Positions 4,121 through 46,356 of a DNA stretch of 64,000 nt are shown one piece after another. The stretch is from positions 124,001-188,000 of the forward strand of contig NZ_KQ948936.1 of assembly GCF_001514235.1 (NCBI RefSeq), read 5' to 3'. A program made the position numbers and the translations under genes. This DNA is from Streptomyces caeruleatus (GTDB taxonomy: Bacteria > Actinomycetota > Actinomycetes > Streptomycetales > Streptomycetaceae). How positions within the stretch are numbered: the first letter of the stretch is position 1; each line of letters opens with the position of its first letter. Under the pieces are notes generated by a model that worked only from the letters and a program-made list of their open reading frames with translations, was not told the DNA's origin and did not search any database.

Positions 4121-4785
4121 GTCAGCGCCCCGATGGCCATGGGCACACCGCGCGGGACGCCGGTGCGCAGTTGCAGCGCCAGGGCGACATCGGTCCCGTC
4201 GGGCCGGTCGTGGCCGACGAGGTCGGCGACGGTCCAGGCGACGCGCAGGACACGGTCGAGTCCTCGGGCGGTCAGCACACCGCGTTCCAGATTTCGTTCC
4301 GCCTCGTCCATGGCGCCGATCGCGGCGTACCAGCGGCTGCGCAGCTCCCGTCCGGGGATCTCGCTGTTGGTCCGCCAGGGCGTACCGGCGAGCCTCGCTG
4401 TCGCCCGCTCCCGGGCCGCGCGCACCCGGTCGGCGACGGTCGCGGTGGACTCGCCCCGGGCGCCGCGCTCGGTCAGCTGGGCGCGGGTGACCCGGTCCAC
4501 CTCGACGCGGAGGTCGACCCGGTCGAGCAGCGGTCCGGAGAGCCGGGCCTGGTAGCGGCGGATCGCAGAGGGCGGGCACTCACACATCTCGTCCGTCCGG
4601 GAAAAACGGCCGCACGGGCACGGGTTCGCGGCCAGCACCATCAGGAACTTCGCCGGGAAGCGCACGACGCCCGCGCTGCGCGCGATGACCACGTGCCCGG
4701 CCTCCAGGGGCTGCCGCAGAGCGTCGAGGGCCTGGCTGCTGAACTCGGGCGTCTCGTCGAGGAACGAGACGTATAAAACAAGTGG
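4117..4785 (-). pseudogene. 3' fragment of yifB/comM (Mg-chelatase-like AAA+), split by prophage
   Basis: C-terminal part of a YifB/ComM-family ATPase. It begins FLDETPEF at the attachment site and runs through the sensor motif AANPCPCGRF and the Mg_chelatase_C region to MAIGALT. Chromosomal sequence spans 4117-4761; the frame runs on into phage sequence to a TAG at 4786-4788 with no ATG before the internal Met at 4692, so the fragment is probably not made as a functional protein. The matching 5' part is at 46337-47317. Joining them at the AG core gives 542 codons, the length expected for one intact member. Confidence 0.93.
4739..4785. other. attL: attL (left prophage junction)
   Basis: Chromosomal half ends in CGTCTCGTCG-AG-GAA; the phage half is ACGAGACGTATAAAACAAGT plus GG (4764-4785). 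The phage half is the inverted copy of the phage half at attR (46311-46332), with two mismatches over 22 positions, as expected for the two arms of a serine-integrase attP. The inferred crossover dinucleotide is AG at 4760-4761, shared with 46335-46336. The identical stretches around it (CGTCTCGTC and AGGAA) mean the exact crossover could shift by a few bases. Confidence 0.85.
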
Positions 4786-4808: not shown

Positions 4809-6461
4809 TTACTGCGGGGCGTCGTCCGCCCAGGGGTCGGGCTCCCACACGGGATGAACCTCGATACGGGTCTCGCCGCTGCCCTCGACACCCTTCTTTC
4901 CCTTGGCGCCCCGAGTGAGCGCCACGCGCCGGACCAGGGACCGAAGAATGCCGTTTGTCTCGGGAGCCTCGAAGGTCTCCCACTCCTCCAACAGGCCGAC
5001 CGCAAGAGGCATCAGCGCCGCGCGCTCGGGAGTGGCCTCCACCGCGGCAAGCGCTTCGAGCGCTTCGGCAACGGCTTGCTTCTGCTTCACGATCCGTTCC
5101 CGCGCGGCCTCGAATACACCCTCGGGATACGACTCCGGATTCATGGCGCGGTCTACGGCGAGGTTCGTCAACGCGTTCGTCAAGCGGGTGTGCTCACCCT
5201 CCAGCCGTGCGCGTTCCCTTTCCTCACGGGCCCGCCGGTTGTCCCGCTCGACCGGTTCGGGCGTCGCCGGCGCGGCATCGACATCGGCGGCGACCTCGCG
5301 GGCAAGCCACCCGCGTACTTCGTCCTCGACGATGTATCGCTGAACCCATACCGGGTTTTCGCACAGGCCGTTTCGGCTCTGGCCGCACATATAGGCATAG
5401 CCGAGGACCCGACCGGACGCGCGGCGGGCCGAGGTCGCGGCGGCGCCCTCGCGGCACCCTCCGCACCGGATGAGCCCGGTAAGCGGGTACGTAGGGTTTC
5501 GGGCCCGAGGCGTCATTCTTCGGCGTTCGGCGACGTGCGCCTCGTATCGCTCCCACGTCTCCGGGGTGATGATCGCCTCGTGTGCGCCGTCGATGTGAAT
5601 CCACCGCGTACACCGGCCGCCGTTGGCTGTGTAGTCGCACCGGCAGTCAGGGTGATGTACGCGCAGCAGTCCGGCGGCGAACCCGGACAGCATGTAGCGG
5701 CGCAAGCTGTCTGCTCGCCACGGGTTCCCGTCGCCGGTTCGGTAGCCGAGGCCGTTTAGCCATGCGGCGAGGCTGCCGTACCCGTCGGGGACGGGGTACC
5801 CGTCGCCGATCTTGCGCGCGTACAGGTCCTCTATGTGGTCGCGCGCGCGTTCCTCGACCTCGTACCACTCCCTTTGTATCGTCCACTGTCCCGGGTCGGT
5901 GGGGTGCGGGATTCGGCGCGGGTGCCAGATGTAGCCCAGGCGTCGGCCGCCGGTCGCGGGTAGGCCGTGGGCCCGCCGCCACTGGTGCGTTTCCTTCCAC
6001 TGCTCGCCGGCGCGGTCGCTTTCGAACGTGGCGAGGTCGAACAGGATGCGCCGGTTGAAGCGGCCTACGGCGGTACGGGCGTCTACGTCTTCAGTGGCAG
6101 ACACAAGGTCGCCGCCGGCTTTCTCGACCCGGGCGAGGTTGACGGCGATGCCCATGTCATTGCGGCCGAACCGGCTGAACTTCCATACGACGATGCCGCG
6201 GATCTCGCCGGCCTCGACGCGTCGGATACAGCCCATGATTTTGCGCTTGAAGTTTCGGCCGGTCACGTCTGGGTCTTCTACATACTCAACGACTCGACGC
6301 GGGCCGCGACGCTCCCATGCCTGAATCGCTGTGCGCTGTAGATCAAGGCTGATCTTGTCCTCGCGCCACGTGGAAACGCGTAAGTAGGCGAGCCACTTTT
6401 CGGCGTCGTCGTCCGCGGGTGGTAAGCCGCGGAATGTGGGTGGTGTGTCAAGGATGGTCAC
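4809..6461 (-). CDS. int: Large serine recombinase (phage integrase)
   Basis: Site-specific integrase of 550 aa. The N-terminal resolvase domain carries the nucleophile S30 in AYLRVSTWRED and the arginine-rich KFSRFGRND segment. A recombinase domain (about 170-300) follows, then a zinc-ribbon with CGGC near 331 and a second Cys pair near 360-367, and a long charged coiled coil (about 415-480). This is the large serine integrase layout, consistent with the palindromic attP only 24 bp downstream. ATG at 6461 overlaps the upstream gene stop (ATGA). Leu27, three residues before the catalytic Ser, is a TTA codon (6381-6383), rare in Streptomyces. Confidence 0.96.
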   Translation of the reverse strand: MTILDTPPTFRGLPPADDDAEKWLAYLRVSTWREDKISLDLQRTAIQAWERRGPRRVVEYVEDPDVTGRNFKRKIMGCIRRVEAGEIRGIVVWKFSRFGRNDMGIAVNLARVEKAGGDLVSATEDVDARTAVGRFNRRILFDLATFESDRAGEQWKETHQWRRAHGLPATGGRRLGYIWHPRRIPHPTDPGQWTIQREWYEVEERARDHIEDLYARKIGDGYPVPDGYGSLAAWLNGLGYRTGDGNPWRADSLRRYMLSGFAAGLLRVHHPDCRCDYTANGGRCTRWIHIDGAHEAIITPETWERYEAHVAERRRMTPRARNPTYPLTGLIRCGGCREGAAATSARRASGRVLGYAYMCGQSRNGLCENPVWVQRYIVEDEVRGWLAREVAADVDAAPATPEPVERDNRRAREERERARLEGEHTRLTNALTNLAVDRAMNPESYPEGVFEAARERIVKQKQAVAEALEALAAVEATPERAALMPLAVGLLEEWETFEAPETNGILRSLVRRVALTRGAKGKKGVEGSGETRIEVHPVWEPDPWADDAPQ

Positions 6462-42126: not shown

Positions 42127-43479
42127 TTACGCAGCGGCGACCAGCTCGCGGGCCCGATCGTTGAAGTCGGCGACAAGCCGATGCCCCCCAAAGGGCTGCA
42201 TGCGCCGCTGTAGATCCTGCACCGCCTCGACGGCCCGCGACGACTTGACCTGTCCCGCGAGCTTGAGCGTTCGCACACCGGCCGAGTGCGCGGCCTCAAG
42301 GTCGCGCCGTTGCAGGTGGGACACCGCAAGCGCCGCTTGCGACATCGCGCCTCGGCGGGCCCGTTTCTGCATTTGTGCGTGTTCGATGGACCGGCGGGCG
42401 TGCTCCTCGGCCGAAACGGCGTCGCCCAGGTCGCGGAAGGTGTTCGCGTGCTCCCCGTGCAGGTACGCCGGGTCGATGAACGCCGCCCAGTCCGGTTCGC
42501 TGTCGAGGTCGACGTGTTCGTGTGCCCGTTCCGATTGGGCGACGGCGTGCGCTGCTGCCGACTTCTCGCCGAGCAGCGCAAGCGCGCGCGCCTCAAGGCA
42601 CCACAGGTCAGCCAGGCAGGCCGCCGACGTGGTCCTCGACAGACCTTGACGGCCGGCCTGTGCGAGGCGTCGGCCCTCGGCCGGGTCCCCGAGCAACGTC
42701 GCTTGATCGGCCATGCCCGCGAGGACGTGCGCACCGAGCGCCGGGTTACGTGATTCCTCGGCGAGGCGTAGCGACTGGATCAAGTAGCGCTGAGCGATGC
42801 TGTGTTCGCCGTTGTCGTAGGCCATCCAGCCCAGTAGGTACGTCTGTTCGGCCGCCGCCTCGCACAGTGCGCGCCGCACGTTCTCACCGTGGGCCCGGCG
42901 CAACAGCGGGTATACGTGCGCGTTCATGTAGTCGGCGAGCACCAGCCTGCCCGACCCTCCGCCCTGGAAGATGTCCATGCGCTGAAAGGTCGTGAACATG
43001 TTCTTCACGGCGGACACGTCCTCAAGACGTACCCGCGGGCCCGGTTCTGGTTCCTGATCAAGGGTGTTCAACAGCCAGTCCCGCGAGGGCCCGACCCCCG
43101 CGACGGCCGCAAACGGTGCGGCTGCAAGGAACTTCCGTCGATCCACGTCAGCTCTCCCCAGGTCTGCGACGACTTCCACCGTAGCGGCGTAACTGGGGTT
43201 GTACACGAGCGAAGCGTCGATCTCTCCACTGTCGCCGAGCCCGAGATCGTACGTCGTGACCCGAAAGCCGAAGTGGTCCGAGAACACAGCGGCAAGGATG
43301 TCCGGGACAGGCGCCCGCGGCGTCTCACCTTGGAGCCAGCACCGAACGCGCGTCGTATCCGGCGAGACCTGGGGTTGATCCCACTGCAACGCCTTTGATT
43401 TCACGCGTCGCGCTAACTCCCCGCGAGTCATCCGCGACCGGTCCAGCCATTGAGCGAGCTTGTCGTTCGGCGCCTTCAT
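42127..43479 (-). CDS. HTH/TPR transcriptional regulator of right-end cassette
   Basis: Protein of 450 aa. N-terminal HTH-like segment (MTRGELARRVKSKALQWDQP, with VRCWLQGETP) of the Streptomyces TPR-regulator class, a linker, then alternating helical repeats to the end (AEQTYLLGWMAYDNGEHSIA; ALAVSHLQRRDLEAAHSAGV). Such regulators in Streptomyces often sit beside small HATPase-type genes, as here. Codon 22 is TTA (43414-43416). ATG 43479 was chosen over upstream GTG/ATG since it starts the conserved region. Transcribed away from the cassette it probably controls. Confidence 0.85.
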   Translation of the reverse strand: MKAPNDKLAQWLDRSRMTRGELARRVKSKALQWDQPQVSPDTTRVRCWLQGETPRAPVPDILAAVFSDHFGFRVTTYDLGLGDSGEIDASLVYNPSYAATVEVVADLGRADVDRRKFLAAAPFAAVAGVGPSRDWLLNTLDQEPEPGPRVRLEDVSAVKNMFTTFQRMDIFQGGGSGRLVLADYMNAHVYPLLRRAHGENVRRALCEAAAEQTYLLGWMAYDNGEHSIAQRYLIQSLRLAEESRNPALGAHVLAGMADQATLLGDPAEGRRLAQAGRQGLSRTTSAACLADLWCLEARALALLGEKSAAAHAVAQSERAHEHVDLDSEPDWAAFIDPAYLHGEHANTFRDLGDAVSAEEHARRSIEHAQMQKRARRGAMSQAALAVSHLQRRDLEAAHSAGVRTLKLAGQVKSSRAVEAVQDLQRRMQPFGGHRLVADFNDRARELVAAA

Positions 43480-43631
43480 CCTCAGCCCTCCTGCGACGGG
43501 GGGTAGCGAAAACGACACCCTTCGACACCCCCCTCGACGGTACCCCCAACTTCGTTACGCGTGTTGCCTAGTTCGAGGAACCATCCGGCCCGCCAATCGG
43601 GCCGTGACAGTCCACCCGTAAGGGGAGACGC

Positions 43632-44072
43632 ATGATCGAACGACAGCGGGACACCACGCCCGCCTGTTGCGCCCCTCCCAGTGGCCCGCCGCCGGTCCTG
43701 CTCTTGGAGGGCGAGCCCAAATCAGCCAGTGCGGCACGCGAGTTCGTGCGCGAGTTCGTCCGGTACCACGTCCCGGACGCGTCCGAGGACTACGTCGAAA
43801 CGGTCGTGTTGGTGGCGTGCGAGATGGTCACCAACTCGATCCGGTACGGCACCGAGCCCGGCGACTCGCTACGGCTCACGCTCGACGCCGATCACATCCG
43901 CACCAGAGTGGAGGTACAAGACCCTGTGAGACGCCGACCCCAGCCCCGTCCCGAGTCCCGCGAACGCGACCGCGGACGCGGCCTGATCATCCTCGACGCC
44001 CTGTGCGTCGACTGGGGCGTAACCGACGCCCCGTTCGGCAAGACCGTGTGGGCGGAGGTGAAGTCACCATGA
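43632..44072 (+). CDS. HATPase-domain protein (RsbW/anti-sigma-like)
   Basis: Protein of 146 aa. GHKL ATPase signature: N-box VLVACEMVTNSIRYG (about 57-71) and G-box RDRGRGLIILDAL (about 113-125). Streptomyces encodes many such stand-alone domains, related to anti-sigma kinases. Divergent from the TPR regulator across 152 bp. ATG after AGGGGAG. Stop overlaps the next start by four bases. Confidence 0.88.
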   Translation: MIERQRDTTPACCAPPSGPPPVLLLEGEPKSASAAREFVREFVRYHVPDASEDYVETVVLVACEMVTNSIRYGTEPGDSLRLTLDADHIRTRVEVQDPVRRRPQPRPESRERDRGRGLIILDALCVDWGVTDAPFGKTVWAEVKSP

Positions 44073-44542
44073 CGACGCCGCTCGACGTGCCCCCGGGCCC
44101 CGGGTTCGTCGCCACGGTGGCCGCCGCGACCGGCATCCACCGCACCGAAGCGGGTGACATCGCCCAGCTGCTCATCACGCACCCCGGACCGCGCCGACCG
44201 AACGAGACGCCCGAGAGCGTCGAGTGCGGCATGCGGCGCCTCGCAACCGCGCTGCACCTTGGCCCCGGCGACGAACAGCCACCCGTGATCGGTGCACAGA
44301 TCATGATCCGGCGTGGGTTCGCCGCCCTCGACTACGGCCACGATCAGTACGTGATGACGATCCCCTCGCCGTCACAGGACTGGTTAGCCCTGCTCGACGT
44401 GGGCGCGGTCTGCCGCGTCTGCTTGGTGATCGCTCCCCTCGCCCTCGCGGCCGATCAGGCCGAGACCGACGCGCACATCCGCGAAAGCCTCGCCCGCGGC
44501 CTGCTCATGTGGGGAACCACCTACGCCCGTCGCCGGTTCTGA
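44069..44542 (+). CDS. Unknown protein of right-end cassette
   Basis: Protein of 157 aa, coupled to the HATPase gene. N-terminal VAAATGIHRTEAGDIAQLLI; middle QIMIRRGFAALDYGHDQYVM; C-terminus VCLVIAPLALAADQAETDAH. No domain recognised. Codon 106 is TTA (44384-44386). Co-expression with the ATPase suggests a partner role. Confidence 0.7.
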   Translation: MTTPLDVPPGPGFVATVAAATGIHRTEAGDIAQLLITHPGPRRPNETPESVECGMRRLATALHLGPGDEQPPVIGAQIMIRRGFAALDYGHDQYVMTIPSPSQDWLALLDVGAVCRVCLVIAPLALAADQAETDAHIRESLARGLLMWGTTYARRRF

Positions 44543-44614
44543 CCGACCTTCGACGGACGGGCCGCCCCGAAGTGGATTGGACTCCGGGCCGACCCGCTGG
44601 GGCCGAGCGTACCC

Positions 44615-44649
44615 GGCGCTCCGGTCAGCACACAGCTGACCGGAGCGCC
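44615..44649. terminator. Perfect 15-bp hairpin before the synthetase-like gene
   Basis: GGCGCTCCGGTCAGC / GCTGACCGGAGCGCC around ACACA. It could end the HATPase operon or act as an attenuator for the synthetase-like gene. No T-run. Confidence 0.7.
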
Positions 44650-44730
44650 CCCGCCCGGCCCCGCCCAGGTCACACAGCACACCCGCCGCACCACTGCGCA
44701 GTTCTGCCCACTTAACGAGGGGAAGACAGG

Positions 44731-45849
44731 GTGACAACCGCATACCCCGTATCACCGAACACCGTCCTGGCGAACGCGCTCAGCCACGCCGAGGACGTGC
44801 TCACGCCCCGAGTCCTCGACGCCGCACCCGAGCGGATCGTGTTCGTCGTCGGGACACAGATCAACGGAGCACCGCACATCGGTACCTCTCTCGTGCAGTC
44901 CCTCACTTTCGCCACCGCAGCCCGCATCCGGGGCAAGTTCGGCGTACCGGCCGAGGTCCAGTTCGGCGCCCTCGACAACGCCCCGTACGCCGTCGTCACC
45001 GACCACGAGACCGGCCACCGCTACCAGCGGGCATACGCGCAGGCCCTCGGCGAACAGGGCGTCGTCGAGCAGGTCGACAAGCTGTACCGCCCCCTGTTCA
45101 CCATCCTGTCCGAGCGGCTGAACGTCCCGTACACCGTCGAGACCTACAGTCAGCAGCAGGCTGGCGAGCACTTCCGCCGCACATGGCTGCGCGCGCTCCC
45201 CCGCATGGACGCCGCGCGCTGGTGGCTTGCCCCGTCCTCCGGGGTCGCGCACATCCGGGTTCCCTGCCCGAGGCCCGCATGTGGTTGGGCCGAGAAGCAC
45301 GCCGAGCGGACCCACGTTCAGCACGTCGGCCCCGAGCGGGCGATCGTGTCGGCCGTCTGTCTGCACCACGGCGAGTACGAGGTCAAGATCGACCCGACCG
45401 GCGAGGGGTACCTCGACCTTGCCACGCTGTACCGAAACCTGATCAAGGAACTCGCCGTGACTGGCAAGACCGGCACGTTGTACGTGATGGTCAAGGGCGG
45501 CGATTGGGTGTTCGGCTCTCAGCTGGTCGACGGCGCCTTACAGGCCCTCGGCCTCACGCAAGGACAGCTGCCCGCCCGCCTGTTCTGCCCGATGATCCTC
45601 AGCGACACTGGCGCCAAGCTGTCCAAGTCGCTCATTCGGGAGGGACGCGCGGCCTTGCCCGAGGGCGCCGCCCCTTGGATGCTCGACACTCGGGACTGGC
45701 CCGGATCGTTGGCCGAGTACGTCGACCGACTGCTCAGCATGGCCGAGGTCGTCCTGTCCGACCCCCGGCACTTCTTCCGTTCGTACTCCGCCGGCGAACT
45801 CAGCCGGATGATGACCGCACCAACACCTAGGAGCGTTTCCGCCCCATGA
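44731..45849 (+). CDS. Class I aminoacyl-tRNA-synthetase-like protein, catalytic domain only
   Basis: Protein of 372 aa. The class I signature motifs are present: HIGT at 49-52 (HIGH motif) in NGAPHIGTSL, and KLSKS at 296-300 (KMSKS motif). A zinc-knuckle insertion has C179, C184 and C210 with His nearby. The layout recalls class I lysyl-type synthetases but stops about where the anticodon-binding domain should begin, so it may charge something other than a tRNA anticodon-selected partner, modify tRNA, or activate an amino acid for a small molecule. GTG after GGGGAAGACAGG. Codon 270 is TTA (45538-45540). Confidence 0.8.
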   Translation: MTTAYPVSPNTVLANALSHAEDVLTPRVLDAAPERIVFVVGTQINGAPHIGTSLVQSLTFATAARIRGKFGVPAEVQFGALDNAPYAVVTDHETGHRYQRAYAQALGEQGVVEQVDKLYRPLFTILSERLNVPYTVETYSQQQAGEHFRRTWLRALPRMDAARWWLAPSSGVAHIRVPCPRPACGWAEKHAERTHVQHVGPERAIVSAVCLHHGEYEVKIDPTGEGYLDLATLYRNLIKELAVTGKTGTLYVMVKGGDWVFGSQLVDGALQALGLTQGQLPARLFCPMILSDTGAKLSKSLIREGRAALPEGAAPWMLDTRDWPGSLAEYVDRLLSMAEVVLSDPRHFFRSYSAGELSRMMTAPTPRSVSAP

Positions 45850-46202
45850 CGGACACCGCCGCTCGCGTCCGCGAGCTGAACCTCTACCGGCGATACTTCG
45901 ACCTGGTCGCCGCAGGCGAGAAGACGACAGAGGTACGGGTCAAGTACCCGCACCTCGCCGACCTCGCCGCGGGCGACGTGATCCGATTCCGGATCAAGGG
46001 CACCGACGAGACATGCGACGTGCGCGTACGGCAGGTCACCGAGTACCCCGATTTCGAGGCCCTGCTCGACGGCGAGGGACCGGCGAACGTCAACCCGACA
46101 GCGACCCGCGAGGAACAGCTCGCCAACATCCGCACCATCTACCCGCCCGAAAAGGAAGCGCTCGGCGCTCTGGCAATCAAGATCGAACTACTCGCCCCCT
46201 GA
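45846..46202 (+). CDS. ASCH-domain protein
   Basis: Protein of 118 aa, one ASCH domain. The family motif G-x-K-x-x-E-x-R appears as AAGEKTTEVRVKYP (about 22-35), followed by DLAAGDVIRFRIKGTDE and VRQVTEYPDFEALLDGEG. ASCH domains bind RNA or act on modified nucleosides (for example E. coli YqfB, an acetylcytidine hydrolase). Overlaps the synthetase-like gene by four bases (ATGA), so the two are made together. Confidence 0.88.
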   Translation: MTDTAARVRELNLYRRYFDLVAAGEKTTEVRVKYPHLADLAAGDVIRFRIKGTDETCDVRVRQVTEYPDFEALLDGEGPANVNPTATREEQLANIRTIYPPEKEALGALAIKIELLAP

Positions 46203-46310: not shown

Positions 46311-46356
46311 CCACTTGCTTTACACGTCTCGTCCAGGAAGAGGACGCCCCGGTGGG
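46311..46356. other. attR: attR (right prophage junction)
   Basis: Phage half starts CCACTTGCTTTACACGTCTC and ends at GT (46311-46332). After the short core (CC-AG, 46333-46336) the chromosome resumes as GAAGAGGACGCCCCGG within yifB/comM. Its phage half mirrors that at attL. The shared core around the crossover is CGTCTCGTC-S-AGGAA. Confidence 0.85.

Follow-up and report, generated by a model that had tools for sequence, protein, structure and literature searches.

The window analyzed here, 64,000 nucleotides of the 10.3-Mb genome of Streptomyces caeruleatus (contig NZ_KQ948936.1, positions 124,001 to 188,000), holds a prophage resembling Streptomyces phage Picard. Near the right end of the prophage, a gene for a class I synthetase-like protein, here called SYN, is followed by a gene for a protein with an ASCH domain, here called ASCH. 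SYN and ASCH constitute a conserved two-gene core that is carried by phages, plasmids, and integrative elements of many actinobacteria. We propose, tentatively, that the two proteins make up one mobile two-component aminoacylating enzyme, of which ASCH binds a nucleotide-type partner or product; this is plausible but falls short of probable. The features of the pair in the window are:

44731 to 45849, plus strand: SYN, a catalytic core of 372 residues similar to class I lysyl-tRNA synthetase (LysRS-I), GTG start (phrog_35625; structure model)
44872 to 44886, plus strand: HIGH-type signature PHIGT, SYN residues 48–52; P48, H49, G51, and T52 are invariant in 32 aligned relatives
45265 to 45369, plus strand: zinc-ribbon-like site C179, C184, C210, H213 in the connective region of SYN; C184, C210, and H213 are invariant and C179 is kept in >90% of the 32 aligned relatives
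45616 to 45630, plus strand: KMSKS-type signature KLSKS, SYN residues 296–300, invariant in the 32 relatives
45846 to 46202, plus strand: ASCH, 118 residues (PF04266), its start overlapping the SYN stop (ATGA), translationally coupled
45915 to 45938, plus strand: ASCH signature GEKTTEVR (GxKxxExR), residues 24–31, from the sequence, compared with the spacing in YqfB (PMC6972931)

A genome-wide scan yielded 170 relatives of SYN, the best 80 of which were kept with their flanks, together with 10 viral contigs. According to tblastn, ASCH lies beside SYN in 79 of these 80 genome loci, and the sole exception is located at a contig edge. ASCH is positioned 3' of SYN in 86 of 91 loci, according to our own gene calls, which were compared with the annotation of Picard, and to clustering of the neighboring genes. 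In a sample of 393 Streptomyces genomes, ASCH starts at most 24 bases downstream of every full-length SYN of the ASCH-bearing clade (43/43). The ATGA overlap of the two genes, described for the window in an earlier first-pass annotation made from the sequence, joins the ASCH start at 45846 to the SYN stop at 45849; it is the usual junction, and an overlap or a short gap is present in nearly all relatives. The two proteins also occur as a single polypeptide in one Streptomyces genome, on a 96-kb Streptomyces plasmid, in Actinokineospora, and in further genomes that belong to its family group (Pseudonocardiaceae) or are close to it. The annotation of a Prauserella plasmid calls the fused product an ASCH-domain protein, and the ASCH gene annotated in Amycolatopsis AA4 begins right where the SYN match ends. 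The first-pass annotation had staked its proposal on the recurrence of the pair in other genomes, and both the counts and the fusions bear this out. The fused form usually follows genes for an AAA_28 P-loop protein and for a helical one, and a recurrent unit of three genes, encoding a helical protein of about 270–316 residues, the AAA_28 P-loop protein, and the SYN-ASCH fusion, is found in loci L183 and L207–L211.

The conserved unit is the SYN-ASCH core, and the cassette of five genes that the first-pass annotation treated as one system is a local arrangement around it, because the three upstream genes of the window (for a regulator, a HATPase, and an uncharacterized protein) are replaced by other genes elsewhere. 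In one group, the upstream genes encode a HATPase, a regulator of the NsdA type, and a methyltransferase; these loci frequently belong to integrative elements that also have genes for excisionase-like, MobC-like, and MobB-like relaxase proteins. In another, two uncharacterized proteins are encoded together with DUF218, WbqC, and a TPR-type regulator, and further contexts contain XRE-type regulators, phage genes, or plasmid genes. Across the mobile clade, no third gene accompanies the pair consistently. Distances between SYN proteins correlate with those between ASCH proteins in a Mantel test (r 0.70), which does not single out the pair, since the value for SYN and HATPase is 0.87 in a smaller set. 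A PADLOC search for known anti-phage defense systems matched none of the five window proteins and, apart from a weak generic methyltransferase match, none of the neighbors, and lent no support to the device against other phages that the first-pass annotation had considered. A Pycsar-type transmembrane protein (PycTM, the Pycsar effector) is encoded near the pair in a few plasmid-type loci only, which rules it out as a constant partner. On a linear Streptomyces plasmid, a gene for a Pycsar effector-like protein (PF18967) is positioned immediately 5' of the pair (locus L190, 5182–5664).

SYN matches phrog_35625, labeled 'tRNA synthetase', with an E-value of 7e-211. This is its sole family match, and the window protein has no Pfam match at E 1. 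The PHxGT motif, the KMSKS-type motif, and the zinc pattern C..C...C..H are held by nearly all SYN clades, the zinc pattern being present in all clades tested, and 125 of the 372 positions are invariant across 41 relatives. Single-sequence and profile searches of the PDB returned no significant match, and it is the comparison of folds that makes the relationship to LysRS-I visible. The AlphaFold2 model of SYN (predicted template-modelling score, pTM, 0.83) most closely resembles LysRS-I (PDB 1irx; Foldseek E 4e-6; Z 18.2 with 291 residues aligned), followed by BshC (Z 17.3) and other aminoacyl-tRNA synthetases (Z ≤13.3), among which GluRS structures reach a Z of about 12. The model of a fused relative (mean predicted local distance difference test score 87.6, pTM 0.85) gives the same order, with LysRS-I at Z 20.5, BshC at 18.2, and others at ≤15.2. 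Since the Z of LysRS-I exceeds that of BshC by only about 1 in the first model, the assignment to the LysRS-I branch also leans on a Macrococcus relative of SYN that matches PF01921, the LysRS-I family (E 9e-5; 21.9 bits, below the curated cut-off of 27), and on the comparison of the SYN profile with a bacterial LysRS-I profile (E 2.4e-4, HHalign probability 44%). LysRS-I is thus the nearest relative in the structure comparison that the first-pass annotation had suggested.

The invariant PHIGT and KLSKS motifs, together with best structural matches among class I aminoacyl-tRNA synthetases and synthetase-like proteins, place SYN in the class I catalytic fold. SYN falls outside the family PF01921: it does not score above the gathering cut-off and lacks the C-terminal anticodon-binding domain. 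The model of its 372 residues covers only residues 3–339 of the 507-residue chain of 1irx. The first-pass annotation was therefore right in describing a synthetase-like enzyme with HIGT and KLSKS motifs and no anticodon-binding domain. In the profile alignment, the GKDH-type motif of LysRS-I corresponds to GGDW in SYN, so the amino acid pocket of SYN probably differs from that of LysRS-I. Genes of the 2,3-diaminopropionate type (PALP, OCD) near one SYN relative hint at a diamino acid substrate.

ASCH belongs to the ASCH family, as it matches PF04266 above the cut-off (E 2.7e-12; 47.7 bits vs 21.2) and contains the GxKxxExR signature. Its nearest solved structures are the archaeal proteins PF0469, PH0355, and PF0455 (PDB 1xne, 2z0t, and 1s04), and the ASCH domain of the fused relative superimposes on PH0355 with a Z of 18.1 and a root-mean-square deviation of 1.4. 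The amidohydrolase YqfB uses Lys21, Thr24, and Glu74, with Arg26 (PMC6972931). When residues are assigned by motif spacing alone, K26 and R31 are kept in the window ASCH family, and the position of Thr24 is taken by Glu29, which is conserved in paired genes and fusions. An N4-acylcytidine amidohydrolase, or eraser, of the YqfB kind is therefore unlikely, contrary to one suggestion of the first-pass annotation, and binding is the safer reading. YqfB-type ASCH proteins did not bind tRNA in vitro (PMC9599836), and ZmASCH cleaves single-stranded RNA, with Tyr47, Lys53, and Ser128 in its cleft (PMC5615036); family membership alone thus does not imply RNA. Two Streptomyces genomes contain an orphan ASCH gene without SYN at the same chromosomal place (L218, 3741–4097; L219, 3608–3964). 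A second Streptomyces ASCH lineage, about 45% identical, encodes a protein of roughly 300 residues with an extra C-terminal part (L224, 3432–4334; L226, 2876–3778), and one locus contains a tandem duplicate of a unit of a regulator-like protein and ASCH (47%; L225, 1622–6491).

We hypothesize that SYN is a LysRS-derived class I core that lost its anticodon-binding domain and would activate an amino acid with ATP, an adenylation that we infer from the invariance of PHxGT and KLSKS. ASCH would bind the acceptor, an RNA or a nucleoside or nucleotide, or else the aminoacylated product. In the fused relatives, ASCH takes up the C-terminal position that the anticodon-binding part has in LysRS-I. The pair would thereby make and handle aminoacylated RNA or nucleotide. 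Phages, integrative elements, and plasmids would carry it as accessory genes controlled by developmental regulators of the host type (NsdA-like TPR proteins and HATPases), presumably to their benefit. A joint act on RNA, a nucleotide, or a nucleoside is the reading that appears to fit best; the first-pass annotation had anticipated such an act on RNA or a nucleoside. Scans of the window for tRNA genes and with Rfam gave no match, and there is therefore no obvious gene for an RNA substrate in it.

Relatives of SYN with 26–31% identity adjoin ASCH-like genes of phrog_3136 in a Pseudonocardiaceae cluster and on Macrococcus plasmids. An ASCH-like gene is present in every Pseudonocardiaceae cluster of this type except one ending at a contig end, and in a rearranged locus of the Streptomyces group; on the Macrococcus plasmids it overlaps the synthetase gene. 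The phrog_3136 proteins have a K..E.R signature and match the window ASCH profile with an E-value of 0.0017 (controls, 0.065–0.76), which is suggestive of ASCH domains but not proof. No relatives of the Macrococcus ASCH-like protein or of a Pantoea synthetase were found in viral contigs, and none of the Macrococcus ASCH-like protein in phages. In the tree, the SYN family is a single clade separate from LysRS-I (support 0.96), and each of the two deep branches of this clade has ASCH or ASCH-like genes. Two groups lacking ASCH, the PALP/AurF/OCD/OTC cluster and Pantoea, are nested within ASCH-bearing branches with weak local support (0.51 and 0.73). The simplest account is probably an ancestral SYN-ASCH link with later losses.

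The surroundings of these relatives are varied. An ASCH-less SYN relative (44%) is encoded in a cluster with PALP, AurF N-oxygenase, OCD, a carbamoyltransferase, a methyltransferase, and often an MFS transporter (L172, L176, L177, and L178), the product of which is probably derived from 2,3-diaminopropionate; nothing useful was found in the literature on clusters of this type. In the Actinokineospora family group (L173, L174, L203, L205, and L206), the SYN relative is accompanied by the ASCH-like protein, an HTH protein, an M20 amidohydrolase, an AlaDH-like protein, two methyltransferases, and AdoMet decarboxylase. The mobilizable Macrococcus plasmids (L186 and L187) have the gene set HTH-MFS-ATP-grasp-ATP-grasp-SYN-ASCH-like, likely a small-molecule pathway. 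A Pantoea plasmid (L188, 9192–12972) contains, in one run, genes for a methyltransferase, the SYN relative, a LOG-family protein, a DMT transporter, and a non-canonical purine NTP pyrophosphatase. Together these genes resemble a cluster for a nucleotide-derived metabolite, and the LOG-family and pyrophosphatase genes beside the SYN relative point to nucleotide chemistry.

SYN and ASCH are lost asymmetrically. Searches of the same 393 Streptomyces genomes with both proteins identified 12 loci, free of contig-end cuts, with a damaged SYN and an intact ASCH with its start; about six of them retain only some 30–78 terminal SYN codons, and some of the frameshifts could be sequencing errors. Nine further loci have ASCH with no SYN or a trace of it, which brings the loci with an intact ASCH and a truncated, frameshifted, or absent SYN to 21. 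None of the 43 full-length SYN genes of the ASCH-bearing clade in these genomes lacks ASCH, and no locus combines an intact SYN with a broken ASCH. The expectation from gene length alone for 21 such loci is 0.76^21 = 0.003, a value for related loci that is not phylogenetically corrected. The dN/dS ratio of ASCH is 0.30 in loci with a missing or damaged SYN and 0.28 in paired loci, a signal that largely predates the loss of SYN.

Of all the observations, this asymmetry speaks most for ASCH acting like an antidote or having a protective role of its own. SYN could make a harmful aminoacylated nucleotide or mischarged RNA, and ASCH could bind or neutralize SYN or its product, which the elements would use to maintain themselves or to act against competitors; after the loss of SYN, hosts would keep ASCH for protection. 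Apart from the asymmetry itself (0/43 vs 21 loci), the similar dN/dS of about 0.3 with and without SYN, the carriage by mobile elements, and the decay of SYN copies are consistent with such a toxin and antidote. Single-chain fusions of toxin-antitoxin modules are known in general and also fit. However, the 21 loci are not independent, 5' truncation favors the survival of the 3' gene, most of the dN/dS signal is older than the loss of SYN, PADLOC gave no match, and ASCH is better conserved than SYN, which is unusual in an antitoxin. We regard this explanation as possible, though on the unlikely side. It is partly compatible with a two-component aminoacylating enzyme, since the product bound by ASCH might be one that does harm if left unbound. 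A more specific form, which we consider unlikely, is a conflict device in which the LysRS-I-derived enzyme aminoacylates a nucleotide or RNA outside ordinary tRNA charging and is restrained by ASCH recognizing the aminoacylated product; this two-gene or single-chain unit would be spread by phages, integrative elements, and plasmids, and orphan ASCH would be kept by hosts as immunity.

SYN might instead couple an amino acid with a metabolite that is not a nucleotide, as MshC, BshC, and MetRS-like peptide ligases do, with ASCH as a sensor or regulator of the pathway. BshC is the second-best structural match of both models, class I synthetase paralogs acting as peptide ligases provide a precedent (PMC2922099), and SYN relatives are found in clusters with PALP, OCD, OTC, AurF, and methyltransferase genes, with AdoMet decarboxylase, methyltransferases, and an M20 amidohydrolase, or, in Macrococcus, with ATP-grasp ligases and an MFS transporter. 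Yet the pair of the mobile clade lacks a regular third companion gene that could supply or modify a metabolite, and the constant presence of a protein folded like nucleotide- or RNA-binding proteins is hard to explain without a nucleotide; such an amide ligase is unlikely for the pair. That SYN is a reduced lysyl-tRNA synthetase charging tRNA or a tRNA-like RNA, whether in translation or as a spare enzyme insensitive to an antibiotic, agrees with its fold and motifs but is very improbable given the absent anticodon-binding domain, the full LysRS-I kept by the host, the window devoid of tRNA genes, and the amino acid site altered from the GKDH-type motif to GGDW. SYN is full-length or a fragment, and often a fragment, in 63 of the 393 Streptomyces genomes, about one in six. 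The patchy presence could indicate passenger genes with no selected function, which is scarcely credible in view of the 125 invariant positions, the coupling kept nearly everywhere, and the ASCH dN/dS well below 1.

Several points weigh against the aminoacylating two-component enzyme that we favor. If ASCH were simply an enzyme subunit, its retention without an intact SYN in 21 loci would be unexplained, and the ASCH-less SYN relatives in biosynthetic clusters show that ASCH is dispensable for some reactions of the SYN family. By analogy with the YqfB-type proteins, RNA binding by ASCH should not be assumed. One weak profile match is what identifies the distant ASCH-like proteins as putative ASCH domains, and the activity, amino acid, and acceptor of SYN are predictions from sequence and models.

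In the window, the five genes lie at 42127–46202, flanked by the lysis genes on one side and the right attachment site on the other, as the first-pass annotation had placed them; coordinates and overlaps were verified on the sequence. The remaining features are:

4827 to 6452, minus strand: serine integrase of the prophage, 49% identical to the Picard integrase
42127 to 43518, minus strand (divergent): NsdA-family TPR-like regulator (NF053720, E 5.4e-124; phrog_10886)
43632 to 44072, plus strand: HATPase_c_2 protein with an anti-sigma-factor-type kinase-like fold (profile match), a frequent but not constant neighbor
44069 to 44542, plus strand: uncharacterized protein, phrog_12213, its start overlapping the HATPase stop (ATGA), outside the constant core
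44615 to 44649, plus strand: perfect 15-bp hairpin between the phrog_12213 gene and SYN
46330 to 46350 (approximate), no strand: attR, where the comM frame is broken after VLFLDET; the left half restarts near 4770

The prophage is inserted in comM, the chromosomal Mg-chelatase gene. The N-terminal part of comM (to VLFLDET) stops near 46345 and the C-terminal part restarts near 4770, both on the minus strand, and the module is therefore the last cargo before attR. The halves have in common just a few residues (FLDET) at the junction, a short overlap that is the expected outcome with a serine integrase. Picard has the same gene order: lysis genes, regulator, HATPase, uncharacterized protein, SYN, ASCH, and then the serine integrase. 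The high-identity conservation in independent genomes indicates that the window genes are not there by chance. The hairpin is likely a terminator or processing site; it has no conserved counterpart, and there is no conserved RNA, upstream of SYN in the other loci.

Synthetase paralogs outside translation repeatedly ran new chemistry, as in queuosine glutamylation, thiol cofactors, and peptide ligation. The recruitment of class I paralogs is already known (Aravind et al. 2010, PMC2922099; review PMC12945691). SYN represents a largely mobile LysRS-I-branch family with a near-obligate partner of a nucleotide- or RNA-binding fold and relatives in biosynthetic clusters. The pair may offer an entry to an uncharacterized aminoacylation reaction and a possible function for PF0469-type ASCH proteins. 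The first-pass annotation knew of no described system of this composition, and we likewise found no description of ASCH with a LysRS-I-branch synthetase in the searchable open-licence literature, a limited search in which absence is weak evidence.

The closest known enzyme, LysRS-I, shares with SYN the catalytic-core fold, the HIGH and KMSKS signatures, and a zinc-type connective region. It is longer, however, with about 500–580 residues, has a C-terminal anticodon-binding part and a GKDH-type motif in place of GGDW, and belongs to a separate clade. GluQ-RS (YadB), a GluRS paralog that acts on queuosine, is likewise a class I core without an anticodon domain, a truncated synthetase paralog with a non-translational role. 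SYN differs from it in its LysRS-I branch and its ASCH partner. MshC and BshC, the cysteine ligases of mycothiol and bacillithiol synthesis, exemplify a class I synthetase fold recruited to amide or thiol-cofactor synthesis (BshC at Z 17–18), but they belong to chromosomal thiol pathways without ASCH, and MshC is CysRS-like. The MetRS-paralog peptide ligases, widespread in bacteria, were similarly recruited from class I paralogs to non-ribosomal synthesis; they are from the MetRS branch, with cupin and lysine monooxygenase, and ASCH is absent from the text describing them (PMC2922099). The window ASCH has the fold and signature Lys and Arg of YqfB-type amidohydrolases, differing in the Glu29 for Thr24, and its closest counterparts of solved structure are the archaeal proteins. 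The nearest complete arrangement is that of Streptomyces phages Picard and Mojorita (Picard gp25–gp29), which have the same gene order beside a serine integrase and a SYN 79.5% identical to that of the window, but in which a DNA-binding protein and DUF397 provide the regulator, instead of the NsdA-like protein.

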